Assembly (NCBI GenBank): GCA_003602485.1
Contig: QQSD01000011.1
Span: forward strand, 1-57,411
Length of the DNA: 57,411 nt
DNA from: Candidatus Poseidoniales archaeon
GTDB taxonomy: Archaea; Thermoplasmatota; Poseidoniia; Poseidoniales; Poseidoniaceae
Reading direction: 5' to 3'
The notes beneath the pieces are model-generated. The model was not told the DNA's origin and ran no database searches. It saw only the letters and a program-made list of their open reading frames with translations. The position numbers were made by a program, and so were the translations under genes. Below, one piece after another: positions 52,686 to 57,411 of this stretch (the stretch's first letter is position 1; the number at the start of each line of letters is the position of its first letter).

Positions 52686-53852
52686 ATGTCACAACCCAGC
52701 GGTCTTCGGATGATTGGTGAGGGCGGGAAGGGATTGCGCATTCACGATTTGGTCAAAGCCCCTGCCAACACACCTTGGGCAAAAGCCAAACAACAATCTT
52801 GGGATGCAAGTGAGCCAGCAACGGTGTATGTAACGCCAGAAGTCTTAGCAGACGGTACAACTTGTTCAGCTGTTACCGTGATTCTACGAACCAAAGGGTG
52901 CCACTGGTGGTGGTCCTCAGGCTGTACCTTTTGCGGCTACTTCAACGATACCCGTGACGACGTCACCAGCGAAGATCTCCACGCTCAGTGGGAAGCAGCG
53001 AAAGTGAAATTTGACCAGTTCGCACAGCAAGACATGGTCAAGGTATACACCTCGGGAAGTTTACTCGAAGACCGAGAAATTCCCGTTGACTTCCAAGAGA
53101 CTGTCCTTCGTGATTGTGCTGAACTCGGCAAAGAATTGATTGTAGAAAGCCGCTGTGAACAGCTGACAGAAGAGAAATTAGCATGGGCCACCAGCATCAA
53201 CCCATCGTTTACTGTAGCCATTGGTCTCGAAGCCTACGATGACGAGGTTCTTCGTTTCCATGTCAACAAGGGTTTTACTACTTCATCATGGGACCGAGCA
53301 GTGACGAATCTTGAAACCTTCAACCTAAGAGTGAAAACCTATCTCATGTTCAAACCACCCTTCATGAGCGAAGCCGATGCACTGGACCACAGTGTCAAAT
53401 GGATAGAGGCAGTAGCGCATCGGAGCGATGAAATTTCTGTCAACCCGATGAATATTCAGCGTGGAACGGTGATCGACCGTTTGCATCGCCACAACGAATA
53501 CCGGCCTCCCTGGCTCTGGTCTCTGGTTGAAATGATTCGTCGGGCTCATCCAAGCCTCCACCCGGACGGTGGCTCAAATTCACAAGGAGAGGCGGTAAGT
53601 CGCCTCATCGTTCACCCGACCGCAGGAGGGAAGGTGAGAGGCTCTCACAACTGTGGCTCTTGCGACGGTGAAGTAGTCGCAGCGATTGAGCGATACGCGG
53701 TCTCGGGAGATTTGATGGAATTCGAAGGCCTCACATGTTCATGCCAAACGGTTTGGGCCAACGAGTTGACCCTTGAGCGTCAACTCCCCCTCCCTCTCGG
53801 CCTCTCAAAACCTCGACGCGGGCGAGTCCTTGAACGGCTTCGCTCCCCGTGA
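52686..53852 (+). CDS. raSEA: Archaeosine biosynthesis radical SAM protein RaSEA
   Basis: Radical SAM enzyme that acts with ArcS in making archaeosine at tRNA position 15. 388 aa, typical for the family. The cluster cysteines follow the family spacing C72-x7-C80-x2-C83 in KGCHWWWSSGCTFCGYFND, and IGLEAYDDEVLRFHVNKGFT and FKPPFMSEADAL are family blocks. A C-terminal Cys-rich part (SHNCGSCDGE, TCSC) is retained. GAGGCG five bases before the ATG supports the start. ArcTGT and ArcS are not in view. It marks an archaeal tRNA modification pathway. Confidence 0.9.
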   Translation: MSQPSGLRMIGEGGKGLRIHDLVKAPANTPWAKAKQQSWDASEPATVYVTPEVLADGTTCSAVTVILRTKGCHWWWSSGCTFCGYFNDTRDDVTSEDLHAQWEAAKVKFDQFAQQDMVKVYTSGSLLEDREIPVDFQETVLRDCAELGKELIVESRCEQLTEEKLAWATSINPSFTVAIGLEAYDDEVLRFHVNKGFTTSSWDRAVTNLETFNLRVKTYLMFKPPFMSEADALDHSVKWIEAVAHRSDEISVNPMNIQRGTVIDRLHRHNEYRPPWLWSLVEMIRRAHPSLHPDGGSNSQGEAVSRLIVHPTAGGKVRGSHNCGSCDGEVVAAIERYAVSGDLMEFEGLTCSCQTVWANELTLERQLPLPLGLSKPRRGRVLERLRSP

Positions 53853-53945: not shown

Positions 53946-53961
53946 TATTGAGGTGCCCTGC

Positions 53962-54234
53962 GTGACAAATTCCACAGCCTTGCCAGATACAACCGTCGGA
54001 ACAGGAGAACCTACTGCCAGTAGAATCGTTCTCACGCTCCTCTTTGTTGGCCTTCTTGGCCTTTATTCCCTCTTCTCAAATGTCTTTGGCTGGGATAACC
54101 TTCCATTGCTTGGCGAAGTGGTTCCGCTCATCGGAAACCTTGGTGGCAGTGGAATCTGGTACTACCTCATCGGATTCTTGGTCGGTATCGGTGCGATTGT
54201 AGCAACAGTGGTGGGCGAGGTTCTCGCAGAATAA
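53962..54234 (+). CDS. Small two-TM membrane protein
   Basis: 90 aa. Helices lie at about 21-41 and 65-87, with LPLLGEVVPLIGNLGGSG between them. No family is recognised. The GTG at 53962 is chosen because GAGGTG stands at exactly six bases; a GTG at 53953 overlaps that site and is unlikely. It is 14 bases before the oxidase-like EF-hand gene, so the products are probably partners, with the small protein possibly an accessory subunit. Confidence 0.72.
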   Translation: MTNSTALPDTTVGTGEPTASRIVLTLLFVGLLGLYSLFSNVFGWDNLPLLGEVVPLIGNLGGSGIWYYLIGFLVGIGAIVATVVGEVLAE

Positions 54235-54248
54235 GGGAGGTGTCATGA

Positions 54249-56234
54249 ATGGAAACGATTTTCTTGTCCGGTGGCTTTCTTCTCTTCGCCCTCTTCTTTA
54301 TGTCTCAATCTCTCGCTAAAGGTGTGGGTACCGTCGGTGGAGCTCTCACGCAAATTGGCTTGTTCATCCTACGGAAAAACCCTCCAGGTCTTGTCGATAT
54401 TTTTAACGACAAGAGTGGAAGCGGCTCCCGCACTTGGATGAACTTCGGTATGCTTTGGCTCGTTTTCGCCGGGTTGCTCGGCTTCTTGGGAGGCTGGCAC
54501 AATTACGACCCGTCTGCTTTGGATTCGCTCGCAAGCATCGGATGGTCCTATGATGATGGATCTTCACTGCGAGATGTGACACTCACCTTGCTTAATTTCG
54601 CTCTACTTTACGGCCTCGTCGGGGCAGGTATGGTTGCAGTCTCTCGCAACGGCAACGGTCGTCTGGCCAGTGAAGCAAATGCTTCCCTCATGGCTCTGGT
54701 TCTTTCCTCGCTTATCTTACTGCGTTATCTCTTGCCTTTCATCTTCGGCTTCTTGGACATTGATACCGAAACTGGGGTTGTTGCAACCATGCTCTACAGC
54801 TTCGAGACATTGGCAGTAGGTTTGGTACTCGTTCCCGTCCTCATCAACATCCTCATCACTGCTGCAAGTCGCGGTGAAGAAGAACTTCAAACCAGTTCTT
54901 GGTTCCTCATTATGGGTGTTACCGCTAACATCCTCGCCATGATTTACATGTTCTTTGGAGAACTCGCTGGAGCCACTCAAACAGTTTGGCTCGCAGAACG
55001 CGTCGCACACGGGTGGGTTCCACTCGCTCTTATCTTTGCAGTTGGATATCACGTCGTCCCAATGGCATCCAAGCAACCCATTTGGTCAGCCTCCATGCGA
55101 ACGGCCAGTATGTTCCTTTTGTTCATCACGATTCCCCCCTTCTTCATGACCGATGCATCAGGAAGCAATTTCTTGACAAACGTTGGTGCTATCTTGCTTA
55201 CGCTGGGTGTTTTGCCAATTTTTGCAGCCTCAATCAACATCATCATGACGGCCAGTTCAGGCCTCAGTTCAACGGTCAAGAACCCCGGAGCAGTTGCTGC
55301 TTTGTTGGCGTTCACCATGCTACCTTTCTTTGCCATTGGAGGTTACTTCACCGCCATGGATACCTACGTAGGAACCGGTGATTTGGGCGCTATGGCTCAC
55401 TCTGTTGACATGGGAATGTTGTTCACAGTTGGCGGCCTCATGGTCTTAGCAGGCGTCTTCTCAAACTATCCACTCGCCATTGGAAAACCACTTGCTACTC
55501 GCTCTACGGCCAACTTGGCCACATGGATGGTTCTTGTCGGCGGTGTTACCTCGACCATTACGTTCGTTGCTGGGGACTTTACGACCAATGCCGTAGCATC
55601 ATCAGGCGTTGAAGACGTCGTCGCCAACAGTGGCGGATTTTTCCTAACAGGGTCAGGTCTCTTCTACCTCATGGGCATCGGCACCATTCTCGCTACTCTC
55701 GTGACCATCCGCACGGGAATTTCAGCAACCGGACGCAGCCTCGAACCAACCGCAGCCTCCGACGTCGCCAAATACACGCTCGTTGCAGGTTCTTCGACCA
55801 CCATTCGTTCCCTCATTGGACGTGGTGTTGGCGTGGATACTGAACTCCTCATCAGTCACGCAGAGGAGAAAGAAGGCGGGTCTACCATCATCGGTGTCAC
55901 CGCTGAACTTCACAACGATGAAGTCAAAGAATTTCCACCATCGGCATCCTCTGCCTTGGTTGAATTTGTACAATATCTGGCCGATTCAAACCAATCCGTG
56001 TTTGATGTATTCCGTTCCATCGACCTGGATGATTCAGGCAAGATTGACAGCAAGGAACTGCTTGCTGCTCTTGAAGCATCGGACATCAGCGAACTCAACT
56101 CCATTGAATCGGCTGAACTTGTCGAACTCATGGACTTGGACGGTGACGGTGAACTCAACCTTCCAGAACTTGACATTGCTATCGCTCAAATCAAGCGAGA
56201 TCACGACATTGTATCCTCCTCAGAAGAGGAGTAA
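54249..56234 (+). CDS. Heme-copper-oxidase subunit I-like membrane protein with C-terminal EF hands
   Basis: 661 aa. Roughly a dozen hydrophobic helices precede a soluble tail. The segment RVAHGWVPLALIFAVGYH then VVPMASKQPIW resembles helices VI-VII of CcoN/NorB-type oxidase subunit I. Histidines seen at comparable sites are H84, H254, H268 and H384. The His pair expected on helix VII and two of the three helix-X histidines are absent, so the copper-heme site is probably lost. The tail has two canonical EF-hand loops, DLDDSGKIDSKE and DLDGDGELNLPE, which should bind calcium in the cytoplasm. GGAGGTG at 54236-54241 supports the start. A calcium-sensing or regulatory membrane role is inferred. 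Confidence 0.6.
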   Translation: METIFLSGGFLLFALFFMSQSLAKGVGTVGGALTQIGLFILRKNPPGLVDIFNDKSGSGSRTWMNFGMLWLVFAGLLGFLGGWHNYDPSALDSLASIGWSYDDGSSLRDVTLTLLNFALLYGLVGAGMVAVSRNGNGRLASEANASLMALVLSSLILLRYLLPFIFGFLDIDTETGVVATMLYSFETLAVGLVLVPVLINILITAASRGEEELQTSSWFLIMGVTANILAMIYMFFGELAGATQTVWLAERVAHGWVPLALIFAVGYHVVPMASKQPIWSASMRTASMFLLFITIPPFFMTDASGSNFLTNVGAILLTLGVLPIFAASINIIMTASSGLSSTVKNPGAVAALLAFTMLPFFAIGGYFTAMDTYVGTGDLGAMAHSVDMGMLFTVGGLMVLAGVFSNYPLAIGKPLATRSTANLATWMVLVGGVTSTITFVAGDFTTNAVASSGVEDVVANSGGFFLTGSGLFYLMGIGTILATLVTIRTGISATGRSLEPTAASDVAKYTLVAGSSTTIRSLIGRGVGVDTELLISHAEEKEGGSTIIGVTAELHNDEVKEFPPSASSALVEFVQYLADSNQSVFDVFRSIDLDDSGKIDSKELLAALEASDISELNSIESAELVELMDLDGDGELNLPELDIAIAQIKRDHDIVSSSEEE

Positions 56235-56251
56235 TCTGAGCATCGGAAGTG

Positions 56252-57411
56252 ATGCTGGTGCGCATTGGTCTGGTCGGCAAACCCAATGTGGGGAAATCAA
56301 CCTTCTTTAGCGCAGCAACGCTCGCTCACGTTGATATTGCAAACTATCCATTCTGTACCATTGACCCGAATGTGGGTGTTGCTTTTGTTGAAGCACGACT
56401 CCCTTGCCCGTGCAAAGACTTACGAGAGAAATTGGAAACCGAAGGACGGATTGAAAGCGTTGCAGAAGACGATGTTCGTCAAGGAAGCCTGTGCGAACCA
56501 CGTACTGGCACCTGCATCGGACATCGCCGCTCTGTCCCAATCGCTCTCGTCGATGTCGCTGGACTTGTTCCTGGGGCCAGTGAGGGCCGAGGGCGTGGCA
56601 ACGCCTTCCTCGCAGACCTTGCCAATAGCGATGTTCTCATTCAGGTTCTTGACGCGGCAGGTACCACCGATATTGAAGGACAATTTATGGGAACTGAAGT
56701 GACTCTTGAGCAAGCACAAGAGGCAATGCGAGCAGAGATTGAATTTCTTCAACATGAACTTGATGCCTGGATTGGAGGCTTACTCGAAGATGGATGGAGT
56801 CGTGGTGTACGGCGAGTCCAAGCCGAGGGCGAGAAAGGTCTGATTTCATTTATTCAAGAGCGTTTGAGTGGACTTGGTGCAACCTTGAACATGGTCAATC
56901 AGGCTATGCTGGAATTCAATGGAGAAGTTGAGAATACCCAGCAACCTTGGGAGTGGGACACCACCGTGCTTCATCGTCTTGGCCAAATACTCCGTGGGCA
57001 TCTCTTCCCAATCGCCTACGCTGCCAATAAATTTGACATTGCTCCTGAGGGCGTACTCAATGGGTTCACCCAACACAACATGGTTGGTTGCATGGCAGAT
57101 GTTGAGTTGGCTCTCCGCCGTGCTGAAGCAGCAGGGCTCATCGATTACCGACCGGGAGCCTCGTCCTTTTCCCTAGCCACCGACACCTCGTTGAATGATG
57201 CTCAACGCAAAGCACTCAACCACATGGGTAATCGCTTGGAAGCGCATGACGGTACGGGGCTTGCTCGTTTGCTTGACCGTGTTCTCTTTGACCATCTCGA
57301 ACGTATTGTTGTATATCCGGTACAGGATGAAACCCACTGGGTTGATGGAGACGGTCGCGTTCTCCCAGATGCTTTTGTTGTGCCCGCTGAACTCCAAGCC
57401 AAAGCCCTTGC
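56252..57411 (+). CDS. ychF: YchF/OLA1-type GTPase, archaeal, 3' end beyond the window
   Basis: Obg-related NTPase that associates with ribosomes. About 386 codons are in view and the frame is still open at the window end. G1 is LVGKPNVGKSTFF, G3 is VDVAGLVPGASEGRGRGNAF, G4 is YAANKFDI, and the archaeal TGS-domain approach has YPVQDETHWVDGDGRVLPDA. A coiled-coil insert between G3 and G4 (about 145-230) is present as in the family. The start could be ATG 56252 or GTG 56258; GGAAGTGA fits the latter spacing. Complete length cannot be given. Confidence 0.9.
   Translation, partial: MLVRIGLVGKPNVGKSTFFSAATLAHVDIANYPFCTIDPNVGVAFVEARLPCPCKDLREKLETEGRIESVAEDDVRQGSLCEPRTGTCIGHRRSVPIALVDVAGLVPGASEGRGRGNAFLADLANSDVLIQVLDAAGTTDIEGQFMGTEVTLEQAQEAMRAEIEFLQHELDAWIGGLLEDGWSRGVRRVQAEGEKGLISFIQERLSGLGATLNMVNQAMLEFNGEVENTQQPWEWDTTVLHRLGQILRGHLFPIAYAANKFDIAPEGVLNGFTQHNMVGCMADVELALRRAEAAGLIDYRPGASSFSLATDTSLNDAQRKALNHMGNRLEAHDGTGLARLLDRVLFDHLERIVVYPVQDETHWVDGDGRVLPDAFVVPAELQAKAL

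Follow-up and report, generated by a model that had tools for sequence, protein, structure and literature searches.

The window analyzed here, a stretch of 57,411 nucleotides, comes from a genome of Ca. Poseidonia (Marine Group IIa) whose nearest named relatives are Poseidonia MAGs. On its plus strand, a complete open reading frame with an ATG start, confirmed in coordinates (54249-56234) and length (661 aa), is a real gene for a membrane protein that lacks metal ligands, carries an EF-hand tail, and almost certainly derives from CcoN, subunit I of the cbb3-type (C-family) oxidases; it is referred to below as pseudo-CcoN. Its parts, all on the same strand, are an additional N-terminal transmembrane helix predicted in the AlphaFold model (residues 3-24; 54255-54320), a predicted 12-TM heme-copper-oxidase fold without metal ligands (residues 58-491; 54420-55721), a conserved, putatively cytosolic motif TTIRxLxGxGxGxDT (residues about 508-536; 55770-55856), and an EF-hand pair module (residues 568-651; 55950-56201) with loops DLDDSGKIDSKE (residues 592-603; 56022-56057) and DLDGDGELNLPE (residues 629-640; 56133-56168). 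Within the oxidase-like fold, R251 (54999-55001) is the aligned counterpart of H207, the CuB ligand of CcoN helix VI. The TTIRxL motif, which follows the last helix in the sequence, is kept throughout Poseidoniales, and a search of the window's own genome found no second copy of this region.

Directly upstream, on the plus strand at 53953-54234, lies a gene for a small protein with two TM segments (about 90 aa; start codon uncertain), and the pair is flanked by plus-strand genes for the archaeosine biosynthesis radical SAM protein RaSEA (52686-53852) and a YchF-related GTPase that runs off the window (56249-57409). Among sampled loci with sufficient flanking sequence, nearly all show this order (RaSEA, two-TM protein, pseudo-CcoN, YchF-like GTPase). 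The two-TM protein had no match in Pfam but has a kept motif around EPxxSR and GxIW(Y/F)(Y/F); because its adjacency to pseudo-CcoN is maintained through such divergence, the two proteins are suggested to form one complex, with the small protein as the proposed partner subunit. RaSEA, from whose conserved synteny no functional link is drawn, and the YchF-like GTPase look like ordinary conserved neighbors. No CcoO or CcoP gene was found among the neighbors of pseudo-CcoN, and membership in a cbb3 complex is not indicated. Poseidoniales respire with a separate A-type oxidase: a distinct COX1 is encoded in an 820-aa frame of the window's genome, which we take to be A-type from its strong COX1 score and its length, and COX1 is also found in most of the order.

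When searched alone against Pfam, NCBIfam, and PDB, the window protein returned EF-hands only, with no COX1 in Pfam. The first-pass annotation, made from the sequence of this locus, had nevertheless remarked on a likeness to subunit I of CcoN or NorB, and profile and fold matches uphold that remark, with CcoN being the closer of the two. A profile of the membrane part from 49 members, run with hmmsearch against all PDB chains, matched CcoN chains alone at E-values of 5.5e-13 to 2e-9, followed by NorB, the nitric oxide reductase of the same fold superfamily (4xyd, 3o0r), at a weaker 0.025. In hhalign, the family aligned with a CcoN profile built from eight plasmid-borne CcoN-type homologues at an E-value of 1.5e-18 over 411 columns, covering window residues 61-495, in which structural P, G, and W residues are kept; the CcoN residues retained are all structural, namely P88, R133, P271, P277, G375, W426, G431, and G478 (window numbering). 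The HMM search against COX1 that had been proposed at the outset gave no match for the window protein but did match some divergent members, with a best E-value of 1.2e-13 in Pfam COX1. The resemblance to CcoN is therefore real but missed by single-sequence HMMs. A tblastn search of plasmids with a divergent member yielded bacterial cbb3-type subunits I only.

Structure prediction, named beforehand as a point on which the idea could fail, returned the oxidase fold in both AlphaFold models, one for each family of the order (pLDDT of 80.4 for the window protein and 81.8 for a sister-family member). For both, the best solved match in Foldseek was CcoN (E-values of 4.9e-9 and 7.2e-11; TM of 0.74-0.79 on the target), with NorB (ranks 8-9 for the window protein) and other oxidases after it, and the 12-TM fold predicted here is the one seen in CcoN (PDB 3mk7, 9g6b, and 8smr). 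Pseudo-CcoN thus shows both the profile similarity to subunit I and the predicted 12-TM subunit I fold of the heme-copper oxidase superfamily. An hhalign comparison with A-type oxidases gave a probability of 0.7%, which is weak evidence given that the alignment included some wrongly chosen ORFs; assignment to the C-family is based instead on the PDB search with the membrane profile and on both structure matches. The identity of pseudo-CcoN as a CcoN descendant is near certain. It differs from CcoN in the added N-terminal helix, in the TTIRxL motif after the last helix, in the EF-hand tail found in one family, and in its metal sites.

In CcoN, the low-spin heme is bound by H60 (helix II) and H349 (helix X), heme b3 by H347 (helix X), and CuB by H207 (helix VI) and H257/H258 (helix VII), with Tyr251 cross-linked to H207 (Pseudomonas stutzeri numbering). 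None of the six histidines, nor the cross-linked tyrosine, has a conserved equivalent across Poseidoniales. The H60 column holds V, A, G, and other residues in the family (V110 in the window protein), and the H207 column is mostly R, H, or K (R251 in the window protein). Histidine occurs at window column 251 in only 12/49 members, perhaps as a remnant of the CuB ligand; H254 of the window protein, close to R251, is not conserved. The H257/H258 columns contain F, L, M, G, and similar residues (also given as P/F/G and similar), those of H347/H349 contain D, V, L, M, S, and similar residues or a gap, and CcoN Tyr251 falls in a gap of the family alignment. HMMER and hhalign disagree on the register of helices VII and X, yet a conserved histidine appears in neither. 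No His or Cys column reaches at least 60% conservation in the membrane part. Residues 1-495 of the window protein lack cysteine, and their four histidines (84, 254, 268, and 384) all lie outside the CcoN ligand columns. The first-pass annotation had already reported the loss of the helix VII pair and of two out of three histidines in helix X; those losses stand, but its count was too low, and a search for a full ligand set after alignment found none. The family thus lacks the low-spin heme histidine pair of helices II and X, the high-spin heme ligand of helix X (H347), and the three CuB histidines with their cross-linked tyrosine that mark a heme-copper oxidase enzyme. Having lost its sites for heme b, heme b3, and CuB, pseudo-CcoN would be expected to perform neither electron transfer nor O2 reduction by known chemistry. 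The earlier proposal of a non-catalytic oxidase relative is accordingly supported by the oxidase fold in the models together with the ligand loss seen after alignment.

A whole-genome search matched pseudo-CcoN in 277 of 293 Poseidoniales genomes (a count that takes in a few matches that are fragments or EF-hand only), in 35/35 high-quality genomes, and in 22/22 genera. The two families of the order share one protein, as indicated by a profile-profile E-value of 1e-113 over 541 columns. Beyond Poseidoniales, a phylum-wide profile search found nothing convincing; its sole match, in a genome from another order of the class (G360), was lost once the membrane part was used alone and is, for that reason, probably an EF-hand match. 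Order-wide presence, with none convincing outside, indicates an origin of the gene in the Poseidoniales stem, or its fixation along that stem. The protein is under strong purifying selection: compared with the two closest relatives, its membrane part has a dN/dS of 0.032-0.034 and its EF module one of 0.05-0.06. Conservation is unevenly placed: mean column entropy is 1.93 in the inner helix halves vs. 2.33 in the outer halves (Mann-Whitney p of 2.7e-7, which is optimistic given that columns are not independent), suggesting that the selected part is the cytosolic side, along with TTIRxLxGxGxGxDT. The redox center of oxidases lies in the outer half of the membrane. Loops assigned to the cytosol bear positive charges, and this positive-inside pattern would place the tail in the cytosol.

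Both loops in the tail are canonical, as had been claimed at first reading: each is a 12-residue loop with ligands at positions 1, 3, 5, and 12, and the window protein matches Pfam EF-hand_1 (E 1.4e-7) and EF-hand_7 (E 5.2e-7), both above cut-off. The question of whether the fusion is conserved in relatives has a divided answer. The two loops are kept across sampled Poseidoniaceae, with the first non-canonical in some divergent genera, but the sister family has no EF-hands and partly carries a SAP-like end instead. Ligand loss is order-wide whereas EF-hands mark one family only, so these were two separate events, and since the sister family does without EF-hands, the basic function does not depend on calcium. 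In Poseidoniaceae, the canonical and conserved loops point to a calcium response of pseudo-CcoN. Two further tail variants were observed: genus g6 (loci L068 and L080) has two EF-hand pairs, hence four loops, and several genera (loci L075, L073, L074, L066, L067, L070-L072, L078, L064, and L069) have a SAP-like C-terminal domain, an odd tail for a membrane protein.

Related EF-hand modules occur in other proteins. The second match of the tail in the window's genome is an 858-aa NuoL of complex I (Proton_antipo_M, E 2e-61; L002 541-3114; G000:C59:43320-45884), in which His-rich linkers flank an inserted EF-hand pair. Genus g1 has such a NuoL (three genomes read), as does one genome of the sister family (G030), and NuoL is uninterrupted in most other genera. 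In genus g2, subunit I of the A-type ATP synthase (L163 2980-5385, L164 3463-5829, and L166 2216-4756) carries an EF-hand pair and His-rich linkers as an insertion immediately ahead of the first TM segment; two of these proteins were scanned and matched V_ATPase_I (E 8e-33 and 2e-30), and the third was assigned by eye. The EF module of this subunit I is up to 75% identical to that of pseudo-CcoN in the same genus, and the two group in a rough tree, which fits one module having been copied between proton-handling membrane proteins. By eye, C-terminal EF-hands were also noted on an apparent APC-type permease in the window's genome (L145 1-1710; one pair), as were EF-hands in a family of zinc-ribbon, acidic, membrane-anchored proteins of Poseidoniaceae (L146, L201, L203, and L206). 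Since kindred pairs occur in the permease, the zinc-ribbon proteins, and other proteins as well, the module need not mean bioenergetics.

The explanation preferred here, at about an even chance, is that pseudo-CcoN is a non-redox, CcoN-derived scaffold with a regulatory or accessory role in the energy membrane, responsive to calcium in one family. The 12-helix CcoN fold would have been kept while both heme sites (b and b3) and the CuB site were lost, and the protein, most likely complexed with the two-TM protein encoded next to it, would act in the energy-converting membrane as a subunit with an accessory or regulatory role, docking via its conserved cytosolic face on partners such as the A-type oxidase, complex I, or ATP synthase. 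Taken alone, this docking mechanism is tentative, its chances being put somewhat below even. In Poseidoniaceae, which gained the putatively cytosolic EF-hand pair, calcium binding would alter docking or activity. A link to respiratory complexes is suggested by the kindred EF modules and by ancestry: close relatives of the tail in complex I and ATP synthase suggest a regulatory, not catalytic, respiratory part, and the related modules in NuoL and subunit I favor the idea that proton-handling complexes share a calcium input. Counted against the preferred explanation are the non-respiratory nature of RaSEA and the YchF-like GTPase, the genes that flank the pair, the spread of such EF-hands to the permease and zinc-ribbon proteins, and the lack of EF-hands in the sister family. 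A broader version, in which calcium-responsive control of proton-handling complexes in Poseidoniaceae would operate through an EF module copied into pseudo-CcoN, NuoL, and subunit I, with pseudo-CcoN as the regulatory hub, is considered unlikely.

A rather unlikely alternative is that evolution turned the oxidase fold into a transporter or an ion (proton) channel, gated by the tail and needing no respiratory partner. Conserved polar residues in the inner membrane half (N200, T204, S280, N330, and T334), the proton paths of the ancestral oxidase, and the EF-hand pair on the apparent permease of the same genome all accord with such reuse, but the neighborhood offers no hint of it or of any substrate, and the K-channel tyrosine of CcoN, Y251, has no counterpart. 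Less probable still is a subunit I mimic that helps to assemble or stabilize the A-type cytochrome oxidase or that serves membrane protein biogenesis: this would suit the oxidase ancestry and the joint occurrence with A-type COX1 across the order, yet pseudo-CcoN is absent from other Thermoplasmatota that have COX1, and its gene does not adjoin oxidase genes. Retention of heme through non-histidine residues, with a redox role preserved, is very improbable. The only conserved ligand-capable residues in the membrane part are K43 (outside the core), M121 (72% by weight), and Y473/Y509, and although Y473 is invariant, there is no conserved His or Cys, the heme positions lack a pair of conserved ligand-capable residues, and the helix VII positions are P/F/G and similar. 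A decaying pseudogene or an assembly artefact, for which ligand loss is the sole argument, is scarcely credible for a gene that is intact in hundreds of genomes from 22 genera with a dN/dS of about 0.03.

The nearest published remarks found concern a halobacterial family and calcium-binding proteins of Marine Group II, both in one report (PMC9258230). The hypothetical family fam02696 is described there as distantly homologous to heme-copper oxidase subunit I, with genes that adjoin oxidase or NorB genes in Halobacteria, and the available text gives no account of its ligands; compared by description only, it resembles pseudo-CcoN in being an archaeal, distant subunit I homologue. The same report lists calcium-binding-domain families specific to the subgroups Poseidoniaceae and Thalassarchaeaceae, and its available text mentions no fusion of these to an oxidase-like, NuoL, or ATP synthase protein. 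A literature search limited to non-subscription papers found no ligand-less oxidase family and no EF-hands in NuoL.

Metal sites define the heme-copper oxidases, and here a family that is under selection and spans an order keeps the fold without any of them, suggesting that the scaffold is usable beyond redox chemistry. Pseudo-CcoN, for which no function is annotated, belongs to marine archaea that are very abundant in the plankton. Through the related EF-hand modules of complex I and ATP synthase, calcium and archaeal bioenergetics would be linked in a concrete and testable way.
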